DNA from: Lepus europaeus
Taxonomy: Eukaryota > Chordata > Mammalia > Lagomorpha > Leporidae
Reading direction: 5' to 3'
DNA length: 64,000 nt
Assembly: GCF_033115175.1 (NCBI RefSeq)
Contig: NC_084847.1
Coordinates: forward strand, 51,531,612 to 51,595,611
Below are positions 1 to 64,000 of the stretch, in pieces. Within the stretch, counting starts at the first letter, position 1. The number at the start of each line of letters is the position of its first letter. A program made the translations under genes and the position numbers. Below the pieces are notes generated by a model. The model had not been told where the DNA came from. It saw only the letters and a list, made by a program, of their open reading frames with translations, and did not search any database.

Positions 1-748
1 GTCCCCGTGAGCCCTGACTTAAAAATACCTCCCACCTCTTCTGCATAATTGTCTTTGTGACGAGAGCTAGCAAATTACGTACATATCCACTGCATGGAAT
101 TGTTTTTCTTTTTGGTGATATTTCTTGGTACGTTTTCTAGAAAAAAAAGGATTTAAGCATATTTATGGTTCTTGATTTTTGAAGAGTCACGCCAAAGGAT
201 TTTGCCAGCTATAAATGTTACACATTGACTTTTTTATGTAGCAAATGTTTTGTAAGTTACCTGATTCTAGTTGACAACTGACCTGTCCTAATTTTTCCCT
301 TGCTATAGAATGAAATTTTTTAATTCGTACGTCTTTTGTGACGGACAGTGTAGTGTACGATCCTCAGCAGCCTGATTCAGATGAAGGGCGTGCAAGGCCT
401 GTTGCCGGACGGCGCCATAAGTCCAGGGACACCTGGGTCTCCTCAGCTTGTCTTTGCATTAAGATGGTCCCTGCACGTTGTAGGCATTCGGTGTTTACTG
501 CATGAAAGCTCTGTGCAGCTCTCCTAAAGCTGAAGAAATTTCAGAAAATTCTGGATCCCTTCCCTGGGGACATGGAGCTAGTCGACTGCTTTCAAATCCA
601 TAGCCATCCAGTGAGCTGAGAGCACGGTTGGATGAGTGGCGCGGCCCTGGTGGTGCGGGAGTCTCGGTTGGTCTGATCCAGCTGGGGATGGACCGCTTCA
701 TCTTTCTCTCGGCCTTTTCTCACCTGGCTTTAACATCGTTCCATGCAG
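1..748 (+). other. BAZ1B: BAZ1B intron end, copy A
   Basis: AT-rich to position 350, then unique sequence. No repeat or gene recognised. It matches 47637-48378 with scattered differences. Confidence 0.7.
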
Positions 749-931
749 GTCGTTTCCTTAGAGAAGCTGAAGGACTTCGGTGAGTGTGTCATTGCCCTTC
801 AGGCCAGCGTCATAAAGAAATTTCTCCAGGGCTTCATGGCTCCCAAGCAAAAGAGAAGAAAATTGCAAAGTGAAGATTCAGCAAAAGCCGAGGAAGTGGA
901 CGAAGAGAAGAAAATGGCAGAGGAAGCAAAG
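749..931 (+). CDS. BAZ1B: BAZ1B exon (pre-PHD linker), copy A
   Basis: 61 codons, phase 0 at both ends, bordered by gcag and gtactc. It begins VVSLEKLKDFGE and carries a lysine/arginine patch (KQKRRK) that could act as a nuclear localisation signal, then a Glu/Lys-rich stretch. It joins the exon at 46517-46694 (ending EFEAR) in the full protein. Confidence 0.93.
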
Positions 932-3050
932 GTACTCAGCGATTGAAGTGACAGTTTGTGATGCTGTGCGAGAGTGTCCTTTGGTTTTAGCCTTAACTCT
1001 GCCTTTTAGCTACCATCAGTATGGTGCCGGAGCTAACTTTGCATGTTTTTCTTAATAATTTTCTGCTAAATTAATAATTTTCAAACTAGTCTGTGGATAA
1101 TAGAGTGGTTGTGCAGTCCCCCCACCCCACCCCTTTCTTTAAGCACAATTTGATTGTCTCTTAAAAGATGGTGGTGGCTTTAAAAATATTTTAAAAATTG
1201 TGGTAAAACATATCTAATGTAACGTTGACTGTTTTTACATGTACAGTTCTGCAGCTGTCAGCACATCCATCTCCTGAGCCTTTTTATTTTTCCAAACTGC
1301 TCCTGTCCCCATTAACCAGTAACTCCCTGCTTCCCCTGCCCCAGCCCTCGGCAGCCACCAAACTGTCCTTTTTCTGTCTGTATGGATTTGACTACTCTAG
1401 GTGTCTCCTGTCCATGGAATCATGCAGTGTGTCCTTTTGTGCCTGGTTTACTGCACTTAGCAAGTCTTCAGGGTTTATGTGGAAGCACACACCAGAGCTG
1501 CTTTCTAAGGCTGATTAATACTCCATTGTGTGTTAAAACCTGATCTACTCACACAGCGTTTTAGATACCACATATGTAGGGTTTGTGCACCGAGCAGTTC
1601 TCCAGTTCTCCGCCAGCGCCACTGAGTCCCACAAGTGAATCCCCACGCTCTGTGCGTGGGCCTGCGTCAGCCTGCAGGGTTAAGGGGCTTCTCCCAGCCG
1701 GCGCCGCGGCTCACTAGGCTAATCCTCCACCTTGCGGCACCGGCACACCGGGTTCTAGTCCCGGTCGGGGCACCGATCCTGTCCCGGTTGCCCCTCTTCC
1801 AGGCCAGCTCTCTGCTGTGGCCAGGGAGTGCAGTGGAGGATGGCCCAAGTGCTTGGGCCCTGCACCCCATGGGAGACCGGGAAAAGCACCTGGCTCCTGC
1901 CATCGGAACAGCGCGGTGCGCCGGCTGCAGCGTGCCAACCGTGGCAGCCATTGGAGGGTGAACCAACGGCAAAAGGAAGACCTTTCTCTCTGTCTCTCTC
2001 TCTCACTGTCCACTCTGCCTGTCAAAAATAAACAAACAAACAAATAAATAAAATTTTTAAAAGGGGGGGGGCTTCTCCCACAAGGCAGCTTTCATTTCAC
2101 ACGCCAGCTGCAAGTCCCGTGTTACCACCTGAGCCTGCTTTACACAAGCACTGCCGCCTCAGGTGTGGTGATTTGCGGCAGTGACGCACGGACTCAGGAC
2201 AGCCTTTTGTCTGGGTTACTGTGTTGTCATACAGGATGCAAGGCAGAAACAGCCTGCTGGAAGAGATGGTAGGACAGGCCAGGGGTGAGGTAGGGCGGCG
2301 CACAGAGCAGCCAGGCTCTCTCCACCGTCGCCACTCGAACAGCACCCGGTATGTTCGTCACTGCGGATCATCCTGTCTTGTTTAGAGCCTCAGCGCCAGG
2401 TCCCTCGGTTTTCCCTTCCAGGGGGTCATGGACAGGGCTGAGAGTTCCAGCTCTCCTATCACTTGGTCTTTCTGGCGGCCAGCTCCATCTGGAAGTCGCT
2501 TAGGGGCCACCGAGGTCATCGCAGTAACATCAGCTCAGTGTGATCCGAGGGTTCCTGTGAACACCAGAGGTGGTCCTGGGAGGAAGTGCCGAGAGCGTTA
2601 GGACTGAGGACAGACCCGGCCCGGTCCTTGCCGTGCCACATTTGTGTGCACACACTTTGGTCACCGCGGAGGGGCACTGCGGGCGCCCCTGCCTTGCAGC
2701 TGTTGCGGTGATTCTACTGTGACCGTGTCTTTGGTCCCTGCACCTCATTGTGCCCAGAGGTGGACTTGCCGGGTCACGGTGACTCGGCGTTGAGAGCTGT
2801 AGCAGCCACCTTGTGGTTTCCCAGGGGCTGCGCCGTCTCGCCGTCTTACCTTCATTTTCCTTCTGGCAGTGCACAGGCATTCTGGTTTCTCCACATCCTC
2901 ACTGGCGCTCTTAGGCTCCATGGCTTGGATGAAGTGGGTAGTTCATTGTGGTTTTTATTTGCGTGTCCCTAATTATCAGTGATGTTGAGAGTCTCTTCAA
3001 AATGGCCATGTGCCTGAAATCTTTGGAGAAATGTATATTCAGGTATTTTG

Positions 3051-3084
<34 letters not shown>

Positions 3085-6000
3085 ACAAGCAGAGTTAGAC
3101 AGAGAGAAAGGTCTTCCTTCCATTGGTTCACCCCTCAAATGGCCGCTATGGCTGGTGCTGCACCGATCCGAAGCCAGGAGCCAGGTGCTTCCTCCTGGTC
3201 TCCCATGCGGGTGCAGGGCCCAAGGACCTGGGCTATCCTCCACTGCCTTCTCGGGCCACAGCAGAGAGCTGGGCTGGAAGAGGAGCAACCGGGACAGAAT
3301 CTGGCACCCCAACCGGGACTAGAACCTGGGGTGCCGGTGCCACAGGCAGAGGATTAGCCTAGTGAGCCGCGGCGCCGGCCCTGCTTATTTTTTAATTGGG
3401 TTGTTTTGTTGTTGAAGTTCTTTCTGTGTTTAGCCTTCTCAGATAAACGACTTACAAATACAGTCTCCCATTCCAGGTGTTCCATTTCATTCTCCTGATA
3501 GTGTCTTGATAGTAATTGATGCATTAAAGTTTAAATTTTGATAAAGTCAGTGCAACTTACCTATCTTTCCTTTTTTAAAAAAAAAATATTTGTTTATTTG
3601 AAAGGCAGAGTTATAGAGGGAGAGACAGATGGCTGCAACAGCTGGGGAGTGACCCAGGAGCCAGGAGCTCCATCCAGGTCTCCCAAGTGGGTAACAGTAG
3701 CCCAGGCACTTGGGCCATCTTCTGTTGTTTCCCAAGCTGTTAGCAGGGAGCTGGATTGGAAGTGGAGCAGCCGGGACTGCAGCCGGCTGTGCCGCAACAC
3801 TCGTGCCACCCCTCCCCATTTTTCGTTTTGTCACCTCCTCCACGTTCGCTGTCGGATCTCAGAAATCATTGCCAGATTCAGTGTCGTGAAGCTTTCCCTC
3901 TTCTCAGTACAAGTAGTTGGGTTGGTGCCACGTATATAGGACGTGCGGGTGAAGTTCCCAGCTCCTGGCTGCACCTGGCCCAGCCCGCTGTTGCAGGTGT
4001 TTGGCGGGGAAGAGGGGGGAAGCCTCAGGGGGAGGTCTCTCTCATTGTCTCCCTGCCTCAGGGGGAGGTCTCTCTCATTGTCTCCCTGCCTCAGGGGGAG
4101 GTCTCTCTCATTGTCTCCCTGCCTCAGAGGGAGGTCTCTCTCATTGTCTCCCTGCCTTTTTAAGTGGAGGAATAAATAATATAATAACGGGCAGCTCCAT
4201 TTTTGTATGTTGAATGTCAGCTTATGAGGACTTACATATGGGAGAGGCCCCAGCCTCATCTAACATGGCGTACTTGTCCCTATTCTAGGTTGCCCTCCTC
4301 CCTTCCTTTCACAGACATCTGATGAAGCCTGCCGGTGCCAGGCACAGGGCTGGGTCTGGAGGTTTTAAGGAACTGAGTAAAAGCCTTGGGTCCTGGCCCA
4401 CACGCAAGAGGTGGAAGCAGGAGACAGTGACAGTGACAGTAGAGTGACAAGTACTGATGAGGAAAAGTGCTGTGAGGGAGGCACGGCCAGGGCAGGCAGG
4501 ACTTCCCCGAGGACGGCCCAGAGATTGGTCGGAACCGGCTTCTGTCCCCAGCACCGGCGCGCTCTTTCTTGGTCTGCATTGCTTCCCAGAGCTCCTCGTT
4601 AGGGTGCTGCGGGTGATACAGGAAGACGGTGGGGATGAGACAGGTCAGCAGAGCGGGGGTTTAGGTAAAGCTGTAGTCCAGACTTGCTCCGAAATGGCAC
4701 ACGTGTATTACCTGGCTGGGATTGAGTTGTCGCCTTTCAAGTGGCTGTTGATGACCGAGGCTACCTGCCAGGCGATACTGAGGTGCCACATAGAGGACCC
4801 GTCTGTCGGGCATCGTCGTCAGTGCTGCTGAGTCTGGCCTGGGTTTTGAGGACAGAGCAGTCTTCCCTGACGTGACCCTTCCAGGCGTCGCCTCTTCCCT
4901 TGGCGTTTCGTGGTGTTCTCAGTGAGCTCTGTGCATCTGAGCCCCACCGGGAAGTGGCCTTGCAGCTTGTCGGGTGAGACTTGTCCTCCGCGTGGCTGGG
5001 GAGGACCTGAGCCCTCCACGGCCAGAGGCGTGGATGGAAAGCCTGGGACGGCTCCCTGGAAAATGAGCGAGGCGCCTCCCAGCCGGCTGTGCCTGCCCTT
5101 CCCCAGGGCCAGCGCCCCGCAGCATGGAATTTTCCAGTCCTTGGCTGTGAAGGTTTCCACCCAGCAGGGCCAGGGCTCCCATCCCTGCTGCATTAGAGAC
5201 TGTATCAGTCTCTAATCCGGGCGTTAGTTCCTTGTTTACAGATGTAGATTATCTCAAATATTCGATGCTTTTTTGTTTCCTTGAGTTAAGTGGAAGACAG
5301 TATGTAATGTAGAATTTGGCGAAGGCTGGGTTTTGCTTGACTTTCTGTTTACTTTGGTTGCATTTGTCCTGATCGCTTTGCTGTTTTTCCATTTTCCATG
5401 GTCTTCCGTGGAAGACTGACCCGAAGCTGCTGGTATCCCTGCCGGGACGGGATACCTGCCCTTCCAGTGCTGAGCAAGGGCGTTCCTGGTGATTGGATGT
5501 ACGCCGCCCCCTCTCGATTCTGTCGTTAATACCTGCTTCTCGGGTGGGCCCAACAGTTATAAAAACCTGGTGTGGTTTCCCACCAGGGTAGTGTGTCCGG
5601 CCCCCAGCAGCACTGCGGGACAGAGCGTCTGCAGGACGCCACCAGCTGTGGGTGGGGAAGCACACTGGCAGCTGTTTAGCTCGCTTGCTCTTTTTTATTT
5701 ATTAAAGACATTTTGAAGGACAGAGCTTCCATCGGCTGGTTCACTCTGCAAATACCCGTAGCACCTGGAGCTAGGCCAGGCCGAAGCCGAGAGCCAAGAA
5801 CTCAGTCTGGGTCCCTTGTGGGTGACAGAAGTCCAAGTATTCGAGCCGTCACCTGCTGTCTCCCAGGCTGTGCATTAGCAGGGAGCAGTGCCAGGGCTCA
5901 AACCCTGGCTCTCCTGTGTGGGGTACAGGAGTCTCGAGCGGTCTTCACCCTCCTAATACCAAACACCCACTCCTATCTGCTTTTGAAAACACAGCCTTGA

Positions 6001-9000
6001 ATGTGGTAGATGTCTTGTCTGGGTTTTCTTTGGCGTTCTTTGGCCTGTTTGGGATTTTGTGTCATCAGAGACCAGGATGTTCTCTCAAATCTTGAGTGTC
6101 TAATAAAAGTGTTTGCCCCTCAAAATCAGAAGCTGGTTGGAGTCTAGGCGGGTTTAGTGGGTGAGGGGATGCTAATGATTGTCCAGTAGGCGCCATGCCG
6201 TGTGTGTGGAATGGGGATCAGGGAACCCGCACCTTAAATTGCTGTGAGACTTCAGGCAGACTTTCTTCCCGTGGAAAATAACAAGTGAATGTTACACAGG
6301 CATCCAGCGTTGTTCTGAGCAGCTCAGATAGGGAAGCAGCTCACATGTCCGCCAGTTGTTGAGTAGATAGAATGTGATCTGTCTGTACAGTGGAATGTTA
6401 CTGCGCAGTAAGTGGGAGGAAGATTGTGCGCGTGCATGGGCCTAGAAACATGCTCCGTGACAGAAGCCACTCAGAAGTGTGTGATCCACTTAAAATACAC
6501 CAGGCTAGACAAGCTTATTTCCAAGATCTCTTCAAGTTTAAAAGATAATTTACTGAAGCCAGACTAGCTGCTGGGTGCCCGCATTTTATAACTTAGGACA
6601 TAATCAGGAAGTGTGGGACTGTGTTCTCCCATACGTGTGTGCACGGGAGCTGACTGTCCACTAGAGGGCAGCCGTGGTCAGAGGGAGCCCAGCTCTCCCT
6701 GCCCGGTCGCCTCTCCTATAGGTCTGTCACTTCCAGGGGACTTCAGTGCCTAGGGCCACGTAGTGAGGTCCCCTGTGGTGCCGGTGAGCGGTGGGGGCCA
6801 GCTAGTTGGCACTAGGGCGTGCGAGCCTTGAGAGCAGCAAGGGCCTCCTTGCGCCTGTTCACTCCTGACCGAGCTGAACACAGGACCTCCACCCAGCTGG
6901 TGCTGCTGCTCTGTGCTGTCGGGTGCCGCCTGAGCCTGGCCATGCCCATCTCTGGCACCTTTCCCCACTGGGAGAGCGACGCCCCTACGCTGGCATTTGC
7001 TTACCTTTTAGGTCGCAAACACTTGAAAACTTTTTCTTTTTTTAAGATTTATTTATTTTTATTTGGAAGAGTTACACAGAGAGAGGAGAGAGAGAGAGAA
7101 AGAGGTCTTCCATCCGGTGGTTCACTCCCCAATTGGCCGCAATGGCTGGAGCTGCGCCAATCTGAAGCCAGGAGCTGGGAGCTTCTTCCAGGTCCCCCAA
7201 GTGGGTGCAGGAGCCCCAGGACTTGGGCCATCTTCTACTGCTTTCCCAGGCCATAGCGGGGAGCTGGATCAGAAGTGGAGCAGCCAGGTCTCGAAGCGGC
7301 ACCCATAATGGATGCCGGCGCTTCAGGCCAGGGCTTTAACCTGCTGTGCCACAGCGCCGGCCCCGTTGAAATGTTTTTTAAAAATCACCTTTTGATTAAC
7401 AAAACGCTATAAATGAATCAGGCTAAATGGCATTTCTGTTTTCCTTAGAGCATGTATAGGGAAGAGGGTGTCTATTACGGAACTGCTAAGTCCACTTCTC
7501 CCGTGTCCCTACTGTGCGTGCTCAGGCTGCCTGTTAGTTCATCGGCATTTTTGATGCCGGGCTGAGGCCAGTGTCCAGAGTGAAGGCAGGCTGGTCCTGG
7601 ACTTGGGACTCGCCCGTGAACGAGGAGTGCTGCAGACGTGACTTAGCATCTTGGCCCCGTAGTCTAGAAGTGTGCTCCGTGTGAGTGCGGGCACAGCGCC
7701 TGGAACCGCAGCTGGACAGGCTGCACGCCAGCCTTTACCACACCTAGGAGCTCCGACTTCTGAGTGACGCTCGGTCTCCAGGTGGAGGACTGTCCTCTCC
7801 CTTCTGTGACGCTTGGCACGGTTCCCCCACGCTTTGGAGCCGCCATTTCTTCCAGGATCCCTGAGTGAAACCGGGAAGTGCTTGGAGGCAGGTACCCTAG
7901 TGTCTTCCCGTGTGCCTGGTTTGGACGTCGTCGTCATAATGCTGGCCTGACTTGATCTCTGTTTAGGTTGCGTCTGCACTGGAAAAATGGAAGACGGCAA
8001 TCCGTGAGGCTCAGACTTTCTCCAGGATGCACGTTCTGCTCGGGATGCTGGACGCGTGCATCAAGTGGGATATGTCCGCAGAGAACGCGCGCTGCAAAGT
8101 CTGCCGAAAGAAGGGTATGTCCAGACGGCGTTCCAATCTGGGCGTCCTGGGGTGGGATCTTCGCTCCCGATGCTCTTTCCCCCGAGTGTGCTGGGGCAGA
8201 CCTCGCCTTCTGAGGGTCTGAGGTCCCACAGTGAGTCCCATCAGGCCCTTTGCTCTCAGTGACACAGGCACAGTTGATGCCATCAGGGAGCAGTTTAGTG
8301 AATCTAAAACCGAGTCCTTCGGTTATCTCAGAATTTTAGTATCTGTGAGGTCAGAGCGGGTACGGCCAGCAGGGGGCAGTCTGTGTGGTGAGGATGCTCA
8401 GATGGGGCCTCTGCAGGGCAAGGCCAAGATCTTCCCGCTGTCCCTGTGTGCAAAGAGAACTGCATTGCTAAAAGCCGAGTGATTGTGTCCTCGGGGACTG
8501 GGGTTATTGTGTGCCGTAGGTTAAAGTTTAATTTCCAAGGATAGGAAAGTCCGTGCAGTCATTCAGGATCAAGCTGATAGAGAAGGGAGGTGGGAGCGGG
8601 GAGATGGCCGTGCTCAGTTGATTGGTTTATTTTCATGGGAAGTGGGGGCGTGTGGGGGTCTCAGAGAAGAGCAGACTAAGGGGCATTCCTGGCACCCCTC
8701 AGTCAGCGTTAGCTGGCCCAGCCTGGCCCTGCGCAATCTGACGATGTGCGTTAGGAGACCTGGGCCCTCAGTTACCTGTCCTAGTTTATGCTACGTTTCT
8801 TTTCAGCAAATGACTGCCTGGAGTGTCAGGGTGCCCCTGTTCTCGAGCGTGTGATGCCCTGTGGCGGTGTGGGCGGGGCGAGCGCTCTGCCTTACAGCTC
8901 CGTGGTTGTGGCCAGGCTGCCCGCGGTGCTCTGCAAGCCTCTCTCTCCACAGGTGAGGACGACAAGCTGATCCTCTGTGACGAGTGTAATAAAGCCTTCC

Positions 9001-16202: not shown

Positions 16203-17597
16203 AGAGGCGGGCCCCGGTGAGGGAGCTGAGTTGGGGGGTGGGTAGCCGGAGACAGCAAGGGAACAGGAACGGGAGGAGAGGGTTGGGGGCACCCAGGAGA
16301 GGTGGCCGCGCTCTCCTGGCCTGGGCGGGGCTCTCTGCCCAGAGGCGCCTCCTTTCTGAGTTTCCAGAGAGGCCGAGGGCACAGCTTGTCCTGGGAACCC
16401 GGTCCCTATCCCTTCCATTCCCTAGGGCCCCTCCCACTCTGGCGACCACAGCAGGTCGGCGGGCGTGGGCTGACCGCACGCTGTGGCTGTGCAGCCTCAC
16501 TGCCTTCAGCCCGGACGCCCCTCCCCCCGCGGCAGCGTCGGTGAGTGCCATGCACGCAGGATCTGTGTTCACCAGCATTGCGGGGGCAAAGGTCACGTCC
16601 CGAGCCATTCCTGAATACCTCTCCCCAGTGCCATCACCCCCCCCCAACAAAAATTTAAAAAAAAAAAAAAAAAAAACAATGAAGGCACTTCACGCGAGAC
16701 TGGCGTCCTGCTTCTAATCATGCATGTAGCCCTTACTGTGAGGCCTGGCCGCGGGTGCTGGGCCGGCCCGCCCACACCAGACAAGCTCTTGGGGGAGCAG
16801 AAGACAAGCAGGAGGAATGGAATTGTTGACGTTTTTTAAATTGACTTTTCTAGTTATTAAAAGTTGCTTGTTTCAGCAGTGACGTTGTATAAAGAACATC
16901 CTGTAACATACTTGTCACCTTGCTTTGGCACATGTACAGTACGATTTCTAGGATGGTGTTTGCTCTACTCCCTGCCGCAGAGGCTGGGCTGGGCCCGCCC
17001 AGCAGGTGGCTGCCGCTGCCCAGCCGCTCAGCCTTCAGCTTGTGGCTCCTTGGGAGCCTGCGCGCCCGTGGTCAGGGCCCGGGCGTGGGAGGGCCCCCTC
17101 CCCGCAGCCATCGAGCGCTCACGGCGCGCGCAGGCCAGGCTTTGTAGTCTTCTTTCCCTTTTATGACAGATTTTGATAAAAGTACAGAACAGGGTTTCAT
17201 TTTCTTTTCTATCAGCTTTGAATCCGGGAGGTTGGAGCCCCTCGGCGCTCCTGTCCCTATTTAAGTTAAAGGAGAAGCGGCCTGGGAAGGGGACCATGCT
17301 TGGAGGACTGGGGAGAGGGCCTCTGGGCGGTGACGCCCGGCTGCAGACCGGCTCCCGCCGAGGACCCCGGGGCCGGCGCGCGCGCGTTCACCGTCCCTCC
17401 TCCCGCAGGCCTGGAGCTAGCCCCGATGTCCAGTTCCGTGACCCTGGCCGCTGCGCCCTCCCCGCCTCTGTCCCAGGTCCAGTCTGTCCTTGTTGGTAGT
17501 GAGAATCCTACGTTCCCACCTAAGTGACATCGGAGCCGGTGGTTGTTTTTTTAAGTCGTCTTTAAGGAGGAAGGGCCCCGTTCAAGGGTGAACTTGT

Positions 17598-17603
17598 AAT
17601 AAA
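17598..17603 (+). terminator. BAZ1B: Polyadenylation signal AATAAA (BAZ1B, proximal)
   Basis: Canonical AATAAA about 1.4 kb after the BAZ1B stop, in the only AT-rich patch of this part. Confidence 0.65.
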
Positions 17604-17614
17604 TTGGAATTTCA

Positions 17615-17620
17615 AATAAA
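17615..17620 (+). terminator. BAZ1B: Polyadenylation signal AATAAA (BAZ1B, distal)
   Basis: Second AATAAA 12 bases after the first. It is followed by a GT/T-rich stretch (ttgtgttt), as expected of a downstream cleavage element, so this is the likelier signal in use. Confidence 0.7.
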
Positions 17621-17892
17621 CATTATGTACTTGTGTTTATAAAGAAGAACCATGGTGCCAGACCTTCCTTTGCGTGCTCGGGGCTGGGAGCCGGGGCCTC
17701 CCCACCGCCCGGCCTTGTCCCTGACTGCAGGGCCTCGGCCTCCAGGCTTATTCCCGACGTCCTGGGCGACGGAATGGTGACCCCCAAGCCTCTCCTGGTC
17801 TTTTCTCAGCGCCCCCCCCCCCAACTCACTGGAAACAAGGTTACAAGAACACGTCTGGTCAGGCTTCACTTTGGGAATCTGTGTGGTCCTTG

Positions 17893-18164
17893 AAAAGATC
17901 TATTTATTTAGGGGAGAGAGACAGAGCTCCCAACTGCAGGTTCACTCCCCAAATGGCCAGAAAGACCCGAGCTGGGCCAATCAGGAGCTTTCTCCAGGTC
18001 TCCCACGCGGGTGCAGGGGCCCCAGCACGTGGGCCACCTTCCACTGCTTTCCCAGGCCATAGCAGGCCGCTGGATTGGTCCAGCCAGGACACCCAGCAGC
18101 ACCCATGTGGGATGCCGGTGCTGCAGGCAGTGGCTTTACCTGCTGTGCCACAGTGCCGGCCCCC
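17893..18164 (-). repeat. C-SINE, antisense
   Basis: aaaagatctatttatttagg to gccacagtgccggcccc. Confidence 0.9.
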
Positions 18165-19908: not shown

Positions 19909-19923
19909 CAGCGCCCCCTGCAG
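19909..19923 (-). promoter_or_regulatory. CTCF-like motif, minus orientation
   Basis: CAGCGCCCCCTGCAG is the reverse complement of a strong CTCF core (AGGGGGCGCTG). It lies about 180 bases beyond the FZD9 poly(A) signal. The motif is seen; occupancy is not known. Confidence 0.5.
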
Positions 19924-28195: not shown

Positions 28196-28198
28196 ACT

Positions 28199-29163: not shown

Positions 29164-29203
<40 letters not shown>

Positions 29204-53400: not shown

Positions 53401-56400
53401 TTAGGGTGATGCGGGTGATACAGGAAGACGTGGGGATGAGACAGGTCAGCAGAGCGGGGGTTTAGGTAAAGCTGTAGTCCACACTTGCTCAGAAATGGCA
53501 CACGTGTATTATCTGGCTGGGATTGAGTTGTCGCCTTTCAAGTGGCTGTTGATGACCGAGGCTACCTGCCAGGCGATACTGAGGTGCCGCATAGAGGACC
53601 CGTCTGTCGGGCATCGTCGTCAGTGCTGCTGAGTCTGGCCTGGGTTTTGAGGACAGAGCAGTCTTCCCTGACGTGACCCTTCCAGGTGTGGCCTCTTCCC
53701 TTGGCGTTTCGTGGTGTTCTCAGTGAGCTCTGTGCGTCTGAGCCCCACCGGGAAGTGGCCTTGCAACTTGTCGGGTGAGACTTGTCCTCCGCGTGGCTGG
53801 GGAGGACCTGAGCCCTCCACGTCCAGAGGCGTGGATGGAAAGCCTGGGACGGCTCCCTGGAAAATGAGCGAGGCGCCTCCCAGCCGGCTGTGCCTGCCCT
53901 TCCCCAGGGCCAGCGCCCTGCAGCATGGAATTTTCCAGTCCTTGGCTGTGAAGGTTTCCACCCAGCAGGGCCAGGGCTCCCATCCCTGCTGCATTAGAGA
54001 CTGTATCAGTCTCTAATCCGGGCGTTAGTTCCTTGTTTACAGATGTAGATTATCTCAAATATTCGATGCTTTTTTGTTTCCTTGAGTTAAGTGGAAGACA
54101 GTATGTAATGTAGAATTTGGCGAAGGCTGGGTTTTGCTTGACTTTCTGTTTACTTTGGTTGCATTTGTCCTGATCGCTTTGCTGTTTTTCCATTTTCCAT
54201 GGTCTTCCGTGGAAGACTGACCCGAAGCTGCTGGTATCCCTGCCGGGACGGGATACCTGCCCTTCCAGTGCTGAGCAAGGGCGTTCCTGGTGATTGGATG
54301 TACGCCGCCCCCTCTCGATTCTGTCGTTAATACCTGCTTCTCGGGTGGGCCCAACAGTTATAAAAACCTGGTGTGGTTTCCCACCAGGGTAGTGTGTCCG
54401 GCCCCCAGCAGCACTGCGGGACAGAGCGTCTGCAGGACGCCACCAGCTGTGGGTGGGGAAGCACACTGGCTGCTGTTTAGCTCGCTTGCTCTTTTTTATT
54501 TATTAAAGACATTTTGAAGGACAGAGCTTCCATCGGCTGGTTCACTCTGCAAATACCCGTAGCACCTGGAGCTAGGCCAGGCCGAAGCCGAGAGCCAAGA
54601 ACTCAGTCTGGGTCCCTTGTGGGTGACAGAAGTCCAAGTATTCGAGCCGTCACCTGCTGTCTCCCAGGCTGTGCATTAGCAGGGAGCAGTGCCAGGGCTC
54701 AAACCCTGGCTCTCCTGTGTGGGGTACAGGAGTCTCGAGCAGTCTTCACCCTCCTAACACCAAACACCCACTCCTATCTGCTTTTGAAAACACAGCCTTG
54801 AACGTGGTAGATGTCTTGTCTGGGTTTTCTTTGGCATTCTTTGGCCTGTTTGGGATTTTGTGTCATCAGAGACCAGGATGTTCTCTCAAATCTTGAGTGT
54901 CTAATAAAAGTGTTTGCCCCTCAAAATCAGAAGCTGGTTGGAGTCAAGGCGGGTTTAGTGGGTGAGGGGATGCTAATGATTGTCCAGTAGGCGCCATGCC
55001 GTGTGTGTGGAATGGGGATCAGGGAACCCGCACCTTAAATTGCTGTGAGACTTCAGGCAGACTTTCTTCCCGTGGAAAATAACAAGTGAATGTTACACAG
55101 GCATCCAGCGTTGTTCTGAGCAGCTCAGATAGGGAAGCAGCTCACATGTCCACCAGTTGTTGAGTAGATAGAATGTGATCTGTCTGTGCAGTGGAATGTT
55201 ACTGCGCAGTAAGTGGGAGGAAGATTGTGCGCGTGCATGGGCCTAGAAACACGCTCCGTGACAGAAGCCACTCACAGAAGTGTGTGATCCGCTTAAAATA
55301 CACCAGGCTAGACAAGCTTATTTCCAAGATCTCTTCAAGTTTAAAAGATAATTTACTGAAGCCAGACTAGCTGCTGGGTGCCCGCATTTTATAACTTAGG
55401 ACATAATCAGGAAGTGTGGGATTGTGTTCTCCCATACGTGTGTGCACGGGAGCTGACTGTCCACTAGAGGGCAGCTGTGGTCAGAGGGAGCCCAGCTCTC
55501 CCTGCCCGATCGCCTCTCCTATAGGTCTGTCACTTCCAGGGGACTTCAGTGCCTAGGGCCACGTGGTGAGGTCCCCTGTGGTGCCGGTGAGCGGTGGGGG
55601 CCAGCTAGTTGGCACTAGGGCGTGCGAGCCTTGAGAGCAGCAAGGGCCTCCTTGCGCCTGTTCACTCCTGACCTAGCTGAACACAGGACCTCCACCCAGC
55701 TGGTGCTGCTGCTCTGTGCTGTCGGGTGCCGCCTGAGCCTGGCCACGCCCATCTCTGGCACCTTTCCCCACTGGGAGAGCGACGCCCCTACGCTGGCATT
55801 TGCTTACCTTTTAGGTCGCAAACACTTGAAAACTTTTTCTTTTTTTAAGATTTATTTATTTTTATTTGGAAGAGTTACACAGAGAGAGGAGAGAGAGAGA
55901 GAAAGAGGTCTTCCATCCGGTGGTTCACTCCCCAATTGGCCGCAATGGCTGGAGCTGCGCCAATCTGAAGCCAGGAGCTGGGAGCTTCTTCCAGGTCCCC
56001 CATGTGGGTGCAGGAGCCCAAGGACTTGGGCCATCTTCCACTGCTTTCCCAGGCCATAGCGGGGAGCTGGATCAGAAGTGGAGCAGCCAGGTCTCGAAGC
56101 GGCACCCATAATGGATGCCGGCGCTTCAGGCCAGGGCTTTAACCTGCTGTGCCACAGCGCCGGCCCCGTTGAAATGTTTTTTAAAAATCACCTTTTGATT
56201 AACAAAACGCTATAAATGAATCAGGCTAAATGGCATTTCTGTTTTCCTTAGAGCATGTATAGGGAAGAGGGTGTCTATTACGGAACTGCTAAGTCCACTT
56301 CTCCCGTGTCCCTACTGTGCGTGCTCAGGCTGCCTGTTAGTTCATCGGCATTTTTGATGCCGGGCTGAGGCCAGTGTCCAGAGTGAAGGCAGGCTGGTCC

Positions 56401-59400
56401 TGGACTTGGGACTCGCCCGTGAACGAGGAGTGCTGCAGACGTGACTTAGCATCTTGGCCCCGTAGTCTAGAAGCGTGCTCCGTGTGAGTGCGGGCACAGC
56501 GCCTGGAACCGCAGCTGGACAGGCTGCACGCCAGCCTTTACCGCACCTAGGAGCTCCGACTTCTGAGTGACGCTCGGTCTCCAGGTGGAGGACTGTCCTC
56601 TCCCTTCTGTGACGCTTGGCACGGTTCCCCCACGCTTTGGAGCCGCCATTTCTTCCAGGATCCCTGAGTGAAACCGGGAAGTGCTTGGAGGCAGGTACCC
56701 TAGTGTCTTCCCGTGTGCCTGGTTTGGACGTCGTCGTCGTAATGCTGGCCTGACTTGATCTCTGTTTAGGTTGCGTCTGCACTGGAAAAATGGAAGACGG
56801 CAATCCGTGAGGCTCAGACTTTCTCCAGGATGCACGTTCTGCTCGGGATGCTGGACGCGTGCATCAAGTGGGATATGTCCGCAGAGAACGCGCGCTGCAA
56901 AGTCTGCCGAAAGAAGGGTATGTCCAGACGGCGTTCCAATCTGGGCGTCCTGGGGTGGGATCTTCGCTCCCGATGCTCTTTCCCCCGAGTGTGCTGGGGC
57001 AGACCTCGCCTTCTGAGGGTCTGAGGTCCCACAGTGAGTCCCATCAGGCCCTTTGCTCTCAGTGACACAGGCACAGTTGATGCCATCAGGGAGCAGTTTA
57101 GTGAATCTAAAACCGAGTCCTTCGGTTATCTCAGAATTTTAGTATCTGTGAGGTCAGAGCGGGTACGGCCAGCAGGGGGCAGTCTGTGTGGTGAGGATGC
57201 TCAGATGGGGCCTCTGCAGGGCAAGGCCAAGATCTTCCCGCTGTCCCTGTGTGCAAAGAGAACTGCATTGCTAAAAGCCGAGTGATTGTGTCCTCGGGGA
57301 CTGGGGTTATTGTGTGCCGTAGGTTAAAGTTTAATTTCCAAGGATAGGAAAGTCCGTGCAGTCATTCAGGATCAAGCTGATAGAGAAGGGAGGTGGGAGC
57401 GGGGAGATGGCCGTGCTCAGTTGATTGGTTTATTTTCATGGGAAGTGGGGGCGTGTGGGGGTCTCAGAGAAGAGCAGACTAAGGGGCATTCCTGGCACCC
57501 CTCAGTCAGCGTTAGCTGGCCCAGCCTGGCCCTGCGCAATCTGACGATGTGCGTTAGGAGACCTGGGCCCTCAGTTACCTGTCCTAGTTTATGCTACGTT
57601 TCTTTTCAGCAAATGACTGCCTGGAGTGTCAGGGTGCCCCTGTTCTCGAGCGTGTGATGCCCTGTGGCGGTGTGGGCGGGGCGAGCGCTCTGCCTTACAG
57701 CTCCGTGGTTGTGGCCAGGCTGCCCGCGGTGCTCTGCAAGCCTCTCTCTCCACAGGTGAGGACGACAAGCTGATCCTCTGTGACGAGTGTAATAAAGCCT
57801 TCCACCTGTTCTGTCTGCGGCCGGCCCTCTACGAAGTGCCAGATGGCGAGTGGCAGTGCCCGGCCTGCCAGCCAGCCACTGCCCGGCGCAACTCCCGCGG
57901 CAGGTGAGGAGTCTTTGTTCTCAAAAGAAATGAACAAAGAGCTGTCACCGTAGAGCTGCGGTGGCTCACACCGGATCGTTCAGGGGAGCTTTGAGTGGGG
58001 TTTTTGGTACAGACCTGATCGTCTCGGGAGGGGCCCAGAGGGCTCTGGTCTGCCTCTAGCTTGATGTTGGGGTGTCAGGTGTTCCCCGCCTGCCCTGTTC
58101 TCTGTCTCGGCCAGACCATCTCCAGAAAGAGCACTGCACGAGAGCTTGTGGAAGAAGGGGATTAAAGGTTGAGACTATTTTGATGCAAAAAATGTCATTC
58201 TGCATTTTTCATAAGACACATTTTCCACGAACTTGGCGAAGTGCTCTGCCTTCTGCTTCCATGTTGCCCACGTCTCACTTCTTCACAATTAGGTCTCCAG
58301 TCAGCACGTGGCGCCCTCTTCCCCACGCGCACTGTCTGCCTCCCCGTCAGGATTGAACTTTGATGCCAGCTTGGATGTGAATTTCTCCCTGGCTTTACAT
58401 AGCCACTGATTGGCCAGGTGTGGCTAGTCCAGTGTCCAGGAACCGTAGAATCAGCCTGCTGCCCGCCGCTCTCCATGTGTCAGCGGGCAGGCTCAGCTTT
58501 CCATTGCCCGTTCTAAACTCACTAGCCTGACTGCTCGCTCGCTCGCTCTTTTTTAATATTTATTATAAAAGAGTAACAGGGAGAGGGAGAGATTGTCTGT
58601 GTGCTGGTTCATTCCACAAAAGGCCACAATGGCCAGGCTAAAGCCAGAAGCCAGGAACTTCTTCCAGGCCTCCCACGTGGGTGGCCAGGGCCCAGGTACT
58701 TGGGCCATCTTCTGCTGCTTTTCCCAGGCCATAGCAGGAAGCTGGATCAGAAATGGAGCAGCTGAGACACAAACCAGTGTCCATGTGGGATGTCAGGTGG
58801 CAGCTTTATCTGCTTTCTACAACACTGGCTCCTAGCCCAATTTCTTAAAAATGTTATTTGTGGCCGGCGCCGCGGCTCACTAGGCTAATCCTCCGCCTGC
58901 GGTGCCGGCACACCGAGTTCTAGTCCCAGTCGGGGCGCCGGATTCTGTCCCAGTTGCCCCTCTTCCAGGCCAGCTCTCTGCTGTGGCCAGGGAGTGCAGT
59001 GGAGGATGGCCCAAGTGCTTGGGCCCTGCACCCGCATGGGAGACCGGGAGAAGCACCTGGCTCCTGCCATCGGATCAGCGTGGTACCGCCGGCCGCAGCG
59101 GCCATTGGAGGGTGAACCAACGGTAAAGGGAAGACCTTTCTCTCTGTCTCTCTCTCTCACTGTCCACTCTGCCTGTCAAAAAAAAAAAAAAAAAGTTATT
59201 TGTTTGAAAGGCAGAAAGAGACAGACTTTTCCATCACTGCTTCATTCTCCAAGCGCCCACAGCAGCCGGGACGGGGCCAAGCTAAAACCAGGAGCCTGGA
59301 ACTCAGTCTCAGTCAGACAGGTCTCCAGATACTTGGAGCCATCGCCACTGCTTCCCGGGGTGTGCTTCAGCAGGAAGCTGGAATTGGAAGTGGAGCCAGG

Positions 59401-62400
59401 GGCCAGCGCTGTGGCGTAGTGGATACCTGCAGTGCCGGCATCCCATATGGGCGCCGGTTCAAGTCCCGGCTGCTCCACTTCCAATCCAGCTCTCTGCTAT
59501 GGCCTGGGAAAGCAGTAGAAGATGGCCCAAGTCCTTGGGCCCCTGCACCCACGTGGGAAACCCGGAGGAAGCTCCTAGCTTCAGATCAGTGCAGCTCTGG
59601 CCACTGCGGCCAACTGGGGAGTGAACCAGCGGGTGGAAGACCTCTCTCTCTCTTTGCATCTCCTCTCTCTGTGTAACTCTGACTTTCAAATAAATAGATG
59701 AATCTTTAAAAAAGGAAATAGTGCCAGGACTTGAACCGCTGTGCTTTGGCAGAGGATTCAGGCAGGCTAAGCAGCGTCCTGTCCACTGTGGTCGGCGGCG
59801 GCCCTTTCCCCTGCGGAACCCCCACTCCCCCGTCCCTGGCCTACACTTGGAGACTCTTAACACTGGCCCAGGGTTTGCTGAGCCCCGGTTGCCATCACGT
59901 CTGTGTGTGTTCTGGACATTCATTCATCATTCAGCTTTGCCTCCTGTGCTCTCCTCCGTGTTGGGAACGATCTCCGCGTAGCCTGCCCCGCGCCCAGCTA
60001 AACCCCTGCTGTCGCTGGGGAGATTGTTTTTATTTAGTTGAAAGGTAGAGTTACAGAGAGGAAGAGAGAGAGGTCTTCTGTCTGCTGGTTCACTCCCCAG
60101 ATGGCCACAACAGCCAGGGCTGGGCCAGGCAGGAACCAGGAGCCAGGAGCTTCCTCTGGGCGCCCCACCGGGGAAGCAGGGGCCCAAGCACTTGGCCATC
60201 TCCGTCGCTTTCCCAGGCTACTAGCAGAGAGCTGGACAGGAAGTGGAGCAGCCGGGACTGGGACTGGAACTGGCAGCCATATGGGATGCCGGTGCTGCAG
60301 CCACGCCAGAGCGCCGACCCCGCCACTTTGTTCTTCACTGAGTATCAGTGAGGCCAAGTGCTGATGTTTGCTGAGTTCACACTGAAACGTGAGGCCATCA
60401 AAGGGCAGCCCCCTGCAGTGTGGACCCTGGCGTGCTCTCTCAGGGCAGAGCTGTTTGATCTGACCCCACCTTCGCGGTGTCCTCAGCGGCTTCTCCCTGC
60501 CTTCCAGCTGCTCTGAGACGCGGGGCTGGGAGCGGCTGTTCTGAGCTGGGATTACCGCGCTTTGATCTTAGGGTCATCTGCAAGCTGCTGGTCATGGAAC
60601 CGGGCCAGCAAGGTGGAGTCGGGCCAGAGGCGCACCTGCCTGGCTGCTGGGGCTCTGCAGTCCACCCCCCCCCCCCCACGCCGGCAGCTTCCACTACCTG
60701 CAGTGTTACATTATCTGGCTCCTTGTGTGAGGCAAAGGCATTGTTTTGTGGGGGAGGGGAGCGTTGTATTGTGGTCTTGATTTCTGTCACCAAGCCATTT
60801 GGGGCCTGCTAGAGGAGACAGCTGTTGACACTTGGTTATTCTTCGAGTAGAGCGCTGGCCTGGCCTGGATTTTGGGGTTCCCTGCCCGGAGCAGAGCTGT
60901 CAGTCTGGTCTCTGAGAAGCTGGGGGTCCTGGGGGTCGCTGGCCCTCCTCTTCTCAGGACCGCCGTGTGGTTCCTCCTCGCAGGAATTATACCGAAGAGT
61001 CGGCCTCTGAAGACAGTGGAGACGCCGAGAGCGATTCGGAGGAGGAGGAAGAGGACGATGACGAGGAGGAGGAAGACTATGAGGTGGCTGGTTTGCGATG
61101 TAAGTGTTGGGTTTGTCTGCGCTCTCTCACGGTCTGCCCAGCTGCCGTGGAGAGGCCGGGTGCTGCCGCCTTGCTGGCTGTGTGCTCGTGTTACGGCTGG
61201 AGGGGTCCCGGCTGCGCTGTGCCCTGCGCACACTAACAGCAAGCTAGACTCGGTACAGGACTGGGACTTGGACCCAGGCACTTCCTTACGGATTGAGGTT
61301 GTCCGAAGCATTGTCTTTTTTTTTTTTTCTTAAGATTTATTTATGCTGGTGCCTTGGCTCACTAGGCTAATCCTCCGCCTGCGGTGCCGGCACCCCGGGT
61401 TCTAATCCCGGTCAGGGCGTCGGATTCTGTCCCGGTCGCTCCTCTTCTGTGGCCCGGGAGTACAGTGGAGGATGGCCCAAGTCCTTGGGCCCTGCACCCG
61501 TATGGGAGACCAGGAGAGGCACCTGGCTCCTGGCTTCAGATCAGTGCAGTGCGCCGGCCGCAGCGGCCATTGGAGGGTGAACCAACGGCAAAGGAAGACC
61601 TCTCCCTCTCTCTCTCTCTTCTCTCTCTCTCTCACTCTCTCATTGTCCACTCTGCCTGTCAAAAAAAAAAGATTTATTTGAAAGGCAGAGCGACAGAGAA
61701 GGCTTCCTTCCACTGGCTCACCCCCAGATTCCCGCAGTGCCTGGGGCTGGGCCGGGCCAAAGCTGGCGTCCAGGAACGTGGTGCACGTCTGCCGTGTGGG
61801 TGGCAGGCGCACTAGCAGGGAGCTGGGCTGCAAGTGGAGCAGCCGGGACTTGAACTGACGCTCATGCTGATGTTGGCCGGGCGGCCCAACCTGCTTCCCC
61901 AAGTGCTGTGCCCTGCCTCCAGCCCAGGGGGCGTCTTGCCTGCCCTTCCAGATTCGAGAGCTCCTGAAGAGGGCAGAGCTGCTCTCGGGTCGGCTGGCCC
62001 ACTCTGGTCGCAGTCAGGCGACGGGCTGGCAGTTTGCTGCCGTCCCCCGTGGTGTAGCCTGCGACGCTGGGTCTCTGTGTTTGCAGGAGCTCCTTCTGTT
62101 TGTTCACTGGGGCAGATTGTCGAAGGGAGTCCCCCTGGGAGGCAGACGTAGTGCCTTCGCCTGGTGTCCCGACGAGGCCGGCCTCGCTTGGCCTGGGCTC
62201 ACGGCTCGGTGCACATTTGTCTGCGAACAGATTCTGAATGTCTTCTCTGTTTTCACGCTTTTTTTTTTTTTTTAAAGAATTGTTTATTTTATGTGAAAGG
62301 TACAATTACAGAGAGAGTCTTCGATCTGCTGGTTCATTCCCCAAATGGCTGCAACAGCCAGAGCTGGGCCAGACAGGAGCCAGGAGCTTCTTCCAGGTCT

Positions 62401-63481
62401 CCCACGTGGGTGCAGGGGCCCAAGCAGTTAGGCCGTCTCCCAGCAGGGAGCTGGATCGGAAGAGAAGCAGCCAGGAATTGAACCAGTGCTCATACGGGAT
62501 GCTGGCGCTGCAAGTGGTGGCTTAAGCCACTGTGCCACATTGCCAGCCCCTGTTTTCACATTGATGATTGCCTAGGACTTGTTACTCCCTTTCCAAGGGA
62601 TTGCTCCCACCTGGGTGTCTAGGACCTCCGTTTGCCCAGAGGGGTCTGAGAAGCCTGTGGCCGCCTTGTTCATGGAAGCTCTGTGCCCCGTCTGTCCAGA
62701 GGTCGTCTCCCCACTCCCCACGAGTGACCCAGGCTCTTAGTGAGGAGAGTCGCTGGACTTGATGGAGCAGCCTCGGGCCGGTGCTGGGGCGTTGCTGCCT
62801 GCGGGCACGCTGTGGTGTGCCTGCCGCAGACCTGAGCTGCAGGTCTCTGTGGGGACCCTGGACGAGGCTGTGGTGGAAGTGCCCTGGCCATTGCCTGCGG
62901 GCACGCTGTGGTGTGCCTGCCGCAGAGCTGAGCCGCAGGTCTCTGTGGGGACCCTGGACGAGGCTGTGGTGGAAGTGCCCTGGCCATTGCCCGTGGTATT
63001 CAGAAATGCAGAAATGAGGCTAACCCAGGATGGGTGCAGAGGCGGCCACAGTGCAGGATGGCTCGGGGCCTGCGGACGTGAGGCCGAGCTTTGGCCCGAG
63101 GACGTCCTGTAGCTGCCCTGTCAGCTAACGCCTTCGAGGCCTCATTCCTGGAGTGACCGCGCCGCCCCAAGGACGGAGGTCCTGGAGGAGCTGGTGCCAG
63201 CGAGGTGCCAGCGTCCGTTCCCCGTCGCAGGAGGAGCAGGGGCACCCTATCCCCTGGAGACCTCCGCACCCCTTCCTGCAGTGCCGTGGCTGCGCCCTCC
63301 ATGCGCGGCTCTTCCGCGCTGATCCTCTCTTCTCATTGCAGTGAGGCCACGCAAGACCATCCGGGGCAAGCAGAGCGTCATCACCCCTGCAGCCAGGCCA
63401 GGCCGCCGCCCGGGGAAGAAGCCCACCCGGCGGGCGCGGCCCAAGGCGCCCCCTGGGGACGACGCTGAGGTGGATGAGCTG
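32220..63481 (+). CDS. BAZ1B: BAZ1B (WSTF) middle and C-terminal part, copy B, eleven exons
   Basis: Exons 32220-32489 (5' end lost in the gap), 38727-38865, 39603-39736, 44170-44272, 44939-45037, 46517-46694, 48379-48561, 56770-56917, 57756-57903, 60984-61099 and 63342-63481. Phases all fit and there is no in-frame stop. Encoded in order: a charged Lys/Glu coiled-coil-like stretch, the WSD/WHIM region (TPIGTDRNHNRYWLFSDEVP) found in ISWI-partner proteins, a linker, the PHD finger, an acidic run and a basic linker. The bromodomain exons would start about 0.45 kb past the window end if this copy continues like copy A. Together with the last two exons at 15649-16202, about 706 codons of roughly 1480 are present. 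The WAC and DDT parts are missing. The last five exons duplicate 749-14678. Confidence 0.95.
32705..32830 (+). repeat. MIR-like fragment
   Basis: ggccttggcaagctacttac and cacgcctcacttgg resemble the MIR core. Weak. Confidence 0.35.
32942..33280 (+). repeat. Young C-SINE, sense (first of a same-site pair)
   Basis: ggccggcgccgtggcttaac to A19. Preceded and followed by cagcattatt. Confidence 0.94.
33291..33635 (+). repeat. Young C-SINE, sense (second of a same-site pair)
   Basis: ggccggcgccgcagctcaac to an A-rich tail, again followed by cagcattatt. Confidence 0.94.
34142..34210. repeat. 34-bp tandem duplication inside the L1 relic
   Basis: gacctcgtcatgctacggg begins at 34145 and again at 34179, perfect over the unit. 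Confidence 0.92.
34705..34770 (-). repeat. C-SINE fragment, antisense
   Basis: attttatttatttgaaaggt and ttcccaaatgc, cut by the next element. Confidence 0.65.
34771..35088 (-). repeat. C-SINE, antisense
   Basis: aaagatttatttatttattt to acgccatgtgccagtcc. Confidence 0.88.
35150..35452 (-). repeat. C-SINE, antisense
   Basis: taagatttattttatttatt to tgccacagcaccagccc. Confidence 0.9.
35583..35917 (-). repeat. C-SINE, antisense
   Basis: aaagatttatttatttgaga to actacagcaccggccc. Confidence 0.92.
36087..36408 (+). repeat. Young C-SINE, sense, with target duplication
   Basis: ggccagcaccacggctcac to A9. aaaaactctatc before and aaaaactttatc after. Confidence 0.92.
36620..36840 (-). repeat. Old C-SINE, antisense
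   Basis: T12, aagttttatttatttgaaag, then a diverged body. Confidence 0.75.
36849..37153 (-). repeat. C-SINE, antisense
   Basis: aaagatttatttatttcttt to accatggcgccggcccc. Confidence 0.9.
37411..37728 (+). repeat. Young C-SINE, sense, with target duplication
   Basis: gggccggcgccgtggctcac to caaaacaaaaaaac. cctggcattgt flanks both sides. Confidence 0.93.
38336..38657 (-). repeat. Young C-SINE, antisense
   Basis: T21, gggcagagtggacagagag, to gctgcggcgccagcctc. Confidence 0.92.
38727..38865 (+). CDS. BAZ1B: BAZ1B exon leading into the WSD region
   Basis: 139 nt after tcaacag. Encodes VKLEREAEEERIRKHK and later TPIGTDRNHNR. The charged helix continues and then enters the WSD/WHIM motif. Donor GTCAGT. 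Confidence 0.95.
38866..39602 (+). other. BAZ1B: BAZ1B intron
   Basis: One old sense C-SINE. The rest is unique. Confidence 0.75.
39045..39320 (+). repeat. Old C-SINE, sense
   Basis: ggcagacgctgtgtccgcg, tgggagacctgggttgac and cagataaaacgcataaa. Strongly diverged. Confidence 0.7.
39603..39736 (+). CDS. BAZ1B: BAZ1B exon, WSD/WHIM core
   Basis: 134 nt. Encodes YWLFSDEVPGLFIEKGW, the conserved aromatic motif of the WSD/WHIM module thought to contact ISWI or DNA. Then HDSIDYRF and a variable charged tail ending CPR plus one base, donor GTAAGT. Confidence 0.94.
40122..40395 (-). repeat. Old C-SINE, antisense
   Basis: aaaatttatgtatttatttg to gtacaacagctcccccg. Confidence 0.8.
40660..40935 (-). 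repeat. Old C-SINE, antisense
   Basis: atttttttaaacattatgta, tccactctccaaatgctcac, to gcacctggatacaagg. Confidence 0.75.
41079..41402 (-). repeat. Young C-SINE, antisense, with target duplication
   Basis: T18, gacaagcagaatggatag, to catggcaccggcc. gagaagtctcc flanks both sides. Confidence 0.93.
41420..41735 (-). repeat. C-SINE, antisense
   Basis: aatttctttttaaggttttt, then ttacttatttatttattt, to ccgcagtgctgacccc. Confidence 0.85.
42360..42675 (+). repeat. C-SINE, sense
   Basis: ggggccagcgttgtggcacag to A15. Moderately diverged. Confidence 0.88.
42754..43090 (+). repeat. C-SINE, sense, left arm of the inverted duplication
   Basis: ggggcaggcactgtggcgtag to aaataaataaataaatc. Confidence 0.9.
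43302..43620 (-). repeat. C-SINE, antisense, right arm of the inverted duplication
   Basis: T20, cctaagatttatttatttg, to tgccacagcacctgcccc. It shares the unusual ccaggtctctgctatgg with the left-arm SINE. Confidence 0.9.
43689..43994. mobile_element. Tigger-type (MER8/Tigger3-like) DNA transposon relic
   Basis: tggtaaacctaagcagaaa, gcatttaatatgcccaaag, ggctggctgtgagctgc and tattgctttcacaccgtg follow, in order, the pattern of Tigger-derived non-autonomous elements. The end gaccatctaca resembles the terminal repeat. Family name from memory of the consensus. Confidence 0.7.
44170..44272 (+). CDS. BAZ1B: BAZ1B exon, WSD linker
   Basis: 103 nt after ttcttag. Encodes KKANLGKNANLNSH and later TTVPKQGQNL plus TG of a Trp codon, donor GTAACG. 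The joined codon at the 5' border reads Asn. Confidence 0.9.
44273..44938 (+). other. BAZ1B: BAZ1B intron, unique
   Basis: No repeat or gene recognised. AT-rich in 44690-44850. Confidence 0.7.
44939..45037 (+). CDS. BAZ1B: BAZ1B exon, WSD continuation
   Basis: 99 nt. Encodes FLCDSQKELDELLNC and LHPQGIRESQLKERL. This matches the WHIM pattern of a Trp/Phe motif followed by an Arg-Glu-x-x-Leu helix. Donor GTGAGG. Confidence 0.94.
45150..45432 (-). repeat. C-SINE, antisense
   Basis: taagatttatttatttattt, short body lacking part of the middle, to tgcgacaccacaagtc. Confidence 0.85.
45600..45908 (+). repeat. C-SINE, sense
   Basis: gcgggctagtgctgtgccatg to caaataaatgaataaaatc. Confidence 0.87.
45909..46310 (+). 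repeat. Old L1 3' end, plus strand
   Basis: agtggtggccagggcctggg, tggaattggacagtcgtg and gtgagttttacgttatgtg follow the L1M 3' UTR. Confidence 0.65.
46517..46694 (+). CDS. BAZ1B: BAZ1B exon before the duplicated block
   Basis: 178 nt. Encodes YQDIIHSIHLARKPNL and later FLRSDLIEVATRLQKGG, ending EFEAR, phase 0. It is the last BAZ1B exon present only once on this side. The duplicated block starts 0.94 kb downstream. Confidence 0.95.
46695..48378 (+). other. BAZ1B: BAZ1B intron across the duplication edge
   Basis: Unique to 47277, a MER2-type relic 47278-47575, then from 47637 the block that is repeated from position 1. Confidence 0.8.
47278..47575. mobile_element. Tigger2/MER2-type DNA transposon relic
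   Basis: gccctctatgggttctgtat, accatctgcagatcaaaaat, ttattccctacacagttcag and gatcttggtgtcaggagg follow the MER2 pattern of paired terminal repeats. Ends about 60 bases before the repeated block. Confidence 0.75.
48379..48561 (+). CDS. BAZ1B: BAZ1B exon (pre-PHD linker), copy B
   Basis: Same 61 codons as 749-931, no coding difference seen. It joins in frame to the exon ending at 46694. Confidence 0.94.
48800..49258 (-). repeat. Old L1 3' part, minus strand (copy B)
   Basis: Counterpart of 1165-1620, with small indels (for example tctgtctatgg lacking a TCTG). Confidence 0.8.
49335..49710 (+). repeat. Young C-SINE, sense (copy B)
   Basis: Counterpart of 1697-2061. The tail differs: (AAAT)n replaces (ACAA)n. 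Confidence 0.92.
50420..51228 (-). repeat. Old L1 fragment, minus strand (copy B)
   Basis: Counterpart of 2780-3574, split by the same C-SINE. Confidence 0.8.
50702..51034 (-). repeat. Young C-SINE, antisense, inside L1 (copy B)
   Basis: Counterpart of 3046-3381, with several SNPs and a shorter T run. Confidence 0.93.
51229..51470 (-). repeat. C-SINE, antisense (copy B)
   Basis: Counterpart of 3573-3818. Confidence 0.85.
51602..52975 (+). repeat. Old C-SINE 3' half with expanded minisatellite
   Basis: Same SINE remains as at 3950-4190, but the CT-rich tail between them is expanded to about 1.26 kb. Confidence 0.8.
51676..52940. repeat. Minisatellite, about 42 units of 29 or 33 bp
   Basis: Unit core cagggggaggtctctctcat, then tgtctccct. 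A minority of units carry four extra bases (gcct or ccct). Variants: cagaggg for caggggg, catcg for cattg, and a few lacking one TC pair or one G. Purine and pyrimidine blocks alternate. All three forward frames are free of stops, which is not evidence of coding. Confidence 0.97.
54491..54766 (-). repeat. Old C-SINE, antisense (copy B)
   Basis: Counterpart of 5690-5965. Confidence 0.75.
55082..55300 (+). repeat. Old L1 3' fragment (copy B)
   Basis: Counterpart of 6290-6495, with an extra CA in cactcacagaag. Confidence 0.65.
55461..55475 (+). promoter_or_regulatory. CTCF-like motif, plus orientation (copy B)
   Basis: CCACTAGAGGGCAGC, identical to 6658-6672. Confidence 0.55.
55833..56167 (-). 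repeat. C-SINE, antisense (copy B)
   Basis: Counterpart of 7030-7364, with three substitutions. Confidence 0.92.
56770..56917 (+). CDS. BAZ1B: BAZ1B exon with first PHD zinc ligands, copy B
   Basis: Identical in translation to 7967-8114, including CKVCRKKG and the GTATGT donor. Confidence 0.94.
56918..57755 (+). other. BAZ1B: BAZ1B intron within the PHD finger, copy B
   Basis: Same as 8115-8952. No repeat. Confidence 0.8.
57169..57182 (+). promoter_or_regulatory. CTCF-like motif, plus orientation (copy B)
   Basis: CCAGCAGGGGGCAG, identical to 8366-8379. Confidence 0.6.
57756..57903 (+). CDS. BAZ1B: BAZ1B exon with most of the PHD finger, copy B
   Basis: Identical in translation to 8953-9100. 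It carries the CDEC, HLFC and CPAC zinc ligands. Confidence 0.95.
58549..58838 (-). repeat. C-SINE, antisense (copy B)
   Basis: Counterpart of 9746-10035. Confidence 0.85.
58865..59195 (+). repeat. Young C-SINE, sense, nested (copy B)
   Basis: Counterpart of 10062-10392. Confidence 0.93.
59393..59712 (+). repeat. C-SINE, sense, nested (copy B)
   Basis: Counterpart of 10589-10908. Confidence 0.92.
60025..60321 (-). repeat. C-SINE, antisense (copy B)
   Basis: Counterpart of 11221-11517. Confidence 0.9.
60984..61099 (+). CDS. BAZ1B: BAZ1B acidic exon, copy B
   Basis: Identical in translation to 12181-12296. The Glu/Asp run has the same length in both copies. Confidence 0.93.
61316..61888 (-). 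repeat. C-SINE host of a nested insertion (copy B)
   Basis: Counterpart of 12513-13085. Confidence 0.88.
61344..61668 (+). repeat. Young C-SINE, sense, nested (copy B)
   Basis: Counterpart of 12541-12865. Confidence 0.93.
62259..62550 (-). repeat. C-SINE, antisense (copy B)
   Basis: Counterpart of 13456-13747. Confidence 0.9.
62796..62987. repeat. 96-bp tandem duplication (copy B)
   Basis: Counterpart of 13993-14184, still two units. Confidence 0.93.
63342..63481 (+). CDS. BAZ1B: BAZ1B basic linker exon, copy B
   Basis: Identical in translation to 14539-14678. It is the last exon before the window end. Confidence 0.93.
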
Positions 63482-64000
63482 GTGAGGGTGACTTTCTGTC
63501 CGTCCTCCCCACCCCACCCCACCCCAGCACTAGGAATTTGTCAAGCAACAGGTGGGAGCTCCCCCCCTCCCCCCAGCTTGGGCGGCACCGGCAGCCGCAA
63601 GCAGACAGAGGCCCCAGACCCTCCAGGCTGCTATGTCCGGCCTCCCCCTGCTGTGGCCTGCGTCGTGGCCTCAGGGAGCAGGCAGCCTGCAGCTTGTTAA
63701 GGTTTTTAAAATAGTTCCCATGTGTCCGCATTGGGCGCAGGGGCCGGGGCTCCTGCGGGAATGTGGGCAATGCCGGGGCCTCGCTGGCTGGCGCGGCTCT
63801 GCCCACAGTTGTCGTGGCAGGGGCGGGGCCTGCCTGCCCCCAGCCCGCCGTGTCTTAGCACTTTTGTTTCAGGTCTCGCTTGCACTGTAAGGAATAAAAA
63901 GCAGCTCTTGAAAATGTGCCTGTTTCGACAGATTCCACTGCGCTTGGGGCACAAAGCAAGCCACTGGGGAGGCCAGAGGGCGCCGGCAGATCCTTTGTTT
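63482..64000 (+). other. BAZ1B: BAZ1B intron before the bromodomain exon, copy B, cut by window end
   Basis: Matches 14679-15197. The bromodomain exon is not reached. Confidence 0.8.

Follow-up and report, generated by a model that had tools for sequence, protein, structure and literature searches.

A contig-end overlap across BAZ1B and FZD9 in the Lepus europaeus assembly, very probably a false tandem duplication of mixed heterotype and homotype kind

Heterotype (haplotype) false duplications, described from the Vertebrate Genomes Project, place two allele-like versions of a locus as neighbours in one scaffold with a gap between them (PMC8081667; PMC9516828). In the homotype kind, contig ends that dovetail become a tandem duplication with a gap after scaffolding, as set out in the legend to Extended Data Fig. 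5b of PMC8081667. The passages of PMC8081667 on contig boundaries, like those of PMC9516828, describe copies lying in tandem on either side of a gap, and PMC8081667 gives a length of about one read for the simple cases; the passage of PMC9516828 on assembly gaps reports that a gap separates the copies of false, not true, duplications. The criteria of PMC9516828 for a false duplication further include half read depth on each copy and discordant or spanning linked read pairs. The locus described here is like both kinds and differs from each. Unlike a heterotype false duplication as characterised in those passages, it shows strong divergence in only two of five blocks and near identity in the rest, and unlike the homotype contig-boundary duplication of the PMC8081667 legend, for which about one read length is given, it spans 47.5 kb and holds two divergent tracts. 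The nearest published example is the combined heterotype/homotype case in the legend to Extended Data Fig. 6c of PMC8081667.

The window, meaning the whole 64-kb stretch of DNA that was analysed, is C27:51531612-51595611. Self-comparison was carried out on the window with 60 kb added on each side (184 kb), and genome searches on the 2.93-Gb assembly of 649 records. Positions outside the window continue its numbering, position 0 being the base preceding position 1. The preliminary description had reported a 16-kb block of BAZ1B present twice and collinear, and self-BLAST of the window recovered this doubling on the same strand: 1-4157 matched 47637-51801 at 96.3%, and 4023-15197 matched 52814-64000 at 99.2%, both collinear.

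1-15197, plus strand: copy A, 3' part of BAZ1B; partner 47637-64000
47637-64000, plus strand: copy B; partner of 1-15197

The 16-kb size holds for the in-window blocks, but the true extent is 47.5 kb in one copy and 49.3 kb in the other: full homology runs from -15480 to 32019 (47,500 bases; C27:51516131-51563630) against 32220 to 81518 (49,299 bases; C27:51563831-51613129), extending past the window both ways. Similarly, both blocks do reach the window start and end, where their edges had been placed, but the true edges are contig ends at a gap. Neither this gap, which is exactly 200 N, nor a doubled Frizzled gene appeared in the preliminary description.

1-32019, plus strand: in-window part of the left contig; lies wholly in the overlap, which starts 15,481 bases before position 1 (at -15480) and stops at the contig's last base, 32019
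32020-32219, no strand: N gap between the contigs, exactly 200 N; the only possible site of a duplication junction
32220-64000, plus strand: in-window part of the right contig; lies wholly in the overlap, which continues to 81518; starts inside a BAZ1B exon (match from 32222)

The gap at 32020-32219 is the single N run in the window and separates both copies on one scaffold, the arrangement given for false duplication in the gap passage of PMC9516828. In the 184-kb self-comparison the right contig's first base, 32220, aligned to -15480, and the left contig's terminal 29 bases, up to 32019, matched 81490-81518 at 28 of 29 positions. The duplicated stretch touches both contig ends (-15480 = 32220, 32019 = 81518), as stated for contig-boundary duplication in the corresponding part of PMC8081667; it begins at the right contig's start and finishes at the left contig's end, forming a dovetail overlap of contigs. 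The two contigs thus share one locus at their facing ends, and this locus has been placed in tandem. Homology stops exactly at both edges of the 200-N gap, the strongest point in favour of false (haplotype) duplication, which had already been put forward as the first explanation. Repeat-mediated duplication was set aside as a mechanism, as both edges are contig ends.

Some scaffolders insert 200 Ns as a default. Four further N runs, of 115, 161, 68 and 515 bases, were present in the 184 kb; they may represent withheld letters and were left as they stood. Nowhere in these 184 kb was a duplication junction assembled inside a contig. A real tandem duplication of at least about 47.5 kb, comprising part of BAZ1B and the whole of FZD9 and either fixed or on one haplotype and perhaps polymorphic, would leave identical assembled sequence if its junction could not be crossed by the assembler and lay hidden in the gap. 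Both of its ends would, however, have to fall on exactly the same bases as the two contig ends and its junction would have to be missing from the assembly, while the gap passage of PMC9516828 places gaps between false copies and not true ones; we therefore regard a real duplication as very unlikely. We conclude, with very high confidence, that the doubling is a false duplication of mixed kind made in assembly and not a real gene duplication.

Copy number was assessed by genome search. Window 1000-3000 matched two places over its full length, and the remaining 56 of 58 rows covered a repeat inside the query (40 of 3,357 first-look candidates scored), and the right contig's first 281 bases gave two genome matches, both on C27. 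An additional copy elsewhere in the genome was rejected, as these two queries and the Frizzled frame described below each gave two places. The immediate flanks of the overlap are single copy: the 1,020 bases adjoining it on the left had 1 genome match, and the 2,000 bases adjoining it on the right had one full-length match, the remaining 69 of 70 rows being partial with identity of at most 87%. In the plus-strand self-comparison of the 184 kb, counting matches of more than 400 bases, the 10 kb beyond the overlap's right end matched only itself, and the 10 kb before its left end gave two extra matches of about 80%, of 645 and 589 bases, both farther upstream.

BAZ1B exons were located with a human BAZ1B probe, on which our use of the name rests. 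The probe gave 13 exon matches per copy, with identity of 62.5-100% per match. The coding sequence of five exons had been said to be unchanged between the blocks, and the five exon matches with both copies in the window (746-940, 7967-8116, 8952-9101, 12179-12358 and 14532-14690 in the left copy) indeed showed zero base differences. Comparison of all 13 exon pairs over 2,259 bases, with match ends left untrimmed to splice sites, showed 12 to be identical and one to carry a single silent change. Pfam searches identified PHD fingers (8952-9101 and 57755-57904) and a bromodomain (15837-16199), and found no family in the right contig's first exon match (32222-32497). A solved-structure search with the bromodomain exon returned bromodomain proteins; the best 60 of its 242 matches did not include BAZ1B.

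15649-16199, plus strand: final two exon matches to BAZ1B in the left copy, with the bromodomain at 15837-16199; partners outside the window at 64452-65002
20367-22385, minus strand: candidate FZD9 frame, an open frame encoding Fz and Frizzled domains (Pfam); second copy outside the window at C27:51600770-51602788

The Frizzled frame is presumed to be FZD9, as FZD9 is expected to adjoin BAZ1B. Of its 15 rows in the genome search, 4 marked two near-identical places and 11 had 68-80% identity; FZD9 is doubled along with BAZ1B. In the right Frizzled copy 515 bases read N and were left out of the comparison.

Divergence between the two versions was measured over the whole overlap. There were 337 substitutions in 46,286 compared bases (0.73%) and 87 indels, this comparison excluding both tandem arrays, the left contig's last 331 bases and the 515-base N stretch. 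The window copies accounted for 125 substitutions in 15,031 bases. Between 1-4021 and its partner there were 86 substitutions in 4,000 compared bases with 21 indels, and between 4158-15197 and its partner 39 in 11,031 with 8 indels; all 39 lay at or before 7,936, and from 7,936 to 15,197 there were 0 substitutions and two 1-base indels. Five blocks were delimited post hoc, with the substitutions already seen:

-15480 to -2162: 1 substitution, 3 indels of 1-2 bases
-2161 to 7936: 157 substitutions (1.56%)
7937 to 15604: 0 substitutions, 2 indels of 1 base
15605 to 22129: 11 substitutions (0.17%)
22130 to 31688: 168 substitutions (1.76%)

The greatest spacings between neighbouring substitutions were 12,440 and 7,669 bases, against a maximum of 1,804 in 10,000 uniform scatterings. 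Because the spacings reach these lengths and divergence is not present throughout, it resembles a contig-end overlap of mixed heterotype/homotype kind. Had one haplotype simply been assembled twice, with every difference a sequencing or consensus error, the two long near-identical tracts (-15480 to -2162, with 1 substitution, and 7937 to 15604, with 0) would be expected, but not the two tracts of about 10 kb, which differ by 157 and 168 substitutions and contain 37 indels of more than one base between them, nor arrays differing four- to ninefold in length. Transitions also exceeded transversions in the window copies (55:31 in 1-4021 and 26:13 in 4158-15197), which is not error-like, and a purely homotype origin is extremely improbable.

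Two tandem arrays differed greatly in length between the versions.

51676-52936, plus strand: 29-33-bp tandem array, 1261 bp; counterpart 4022-4157, 136 bp
31689-31907, plus strand: 21-bp tandem array, 219 bp, stopping 112 bases short of the contig end

The 29-33-bp array lies in a BAZ1B intron, between both BLAST matches, with about 4 units at 4022-4157 and 42 units at 51676-52936; if the versions are alleles, it is a strongly length-variable minisatellite. The 21-bp array has 10.5 units (219 bp) in the left contig against 43.5 units (912 bp, L016:6483-7394) in the right, and the break of the left contig may stem from this nearby array. Other repeats were also seen. A 96-bp unit is repeated twice in both versions (13993-14188 and 62796-62991), and self-BLAST showed SINE copies of about 330 bp, presumably of the lagomorph C-type, on both strands at 1697-2040, 10060-10390, 30258-30586, 32943-33281 and other positions.

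The alternation of near-identical and divergent tracts, together with the length-variable arrays, has the appearance of two alleles in an outbred animal. Taken by itself the mosaic could also have arisen by gene conversion between real copies, a point in favour of the real duplication considered above. For the false duplication made in assembly, length bears on the kind: the duplicated lengths of 47.5 and 49.3 kb compare with an expectation of about one read length in the contig-boundary passages of PMC8081667, and as 47.5 kb would exceed this, a haplotype component would be needed. Such a length would count against a simple contig-boundary copy; nothing was found that contradicts false duplication.

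A likely course of events can be proposed for the false duplication. The left contig, stopping at 32019, and the right contig, starting at 32220, would both cover one locus with these ends, from the 3' portion of BAZ1B to FZD9 inclusive, approximately 47.5 kb. The contigs were probably left unmerged because the parental haplotypes differ (1.6-1.8% in two tracts, with two arrays unequal in length), and the scaffolder would then have joined them in series across 200 Ns, so that the shared stretch appears twice in tandem. We infer that the two versions are one animal's two alleles and that haplotype difference was the cause of non-merging; each version would be expected at half read depth.

BAZ1B and FZD9 dosage is of interest for craniofacial and behavioural evolution, and a true duplication would represent a dosage change of interest in that respect. 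If the doubling is an assembly error, it has no biological significance. For users of the assembly, there is a risk that BAZ1B, whose right copy begins mid-exon, and FZD9 are each annotated twice and then taken for gene gains in the Williams-Beuren region.
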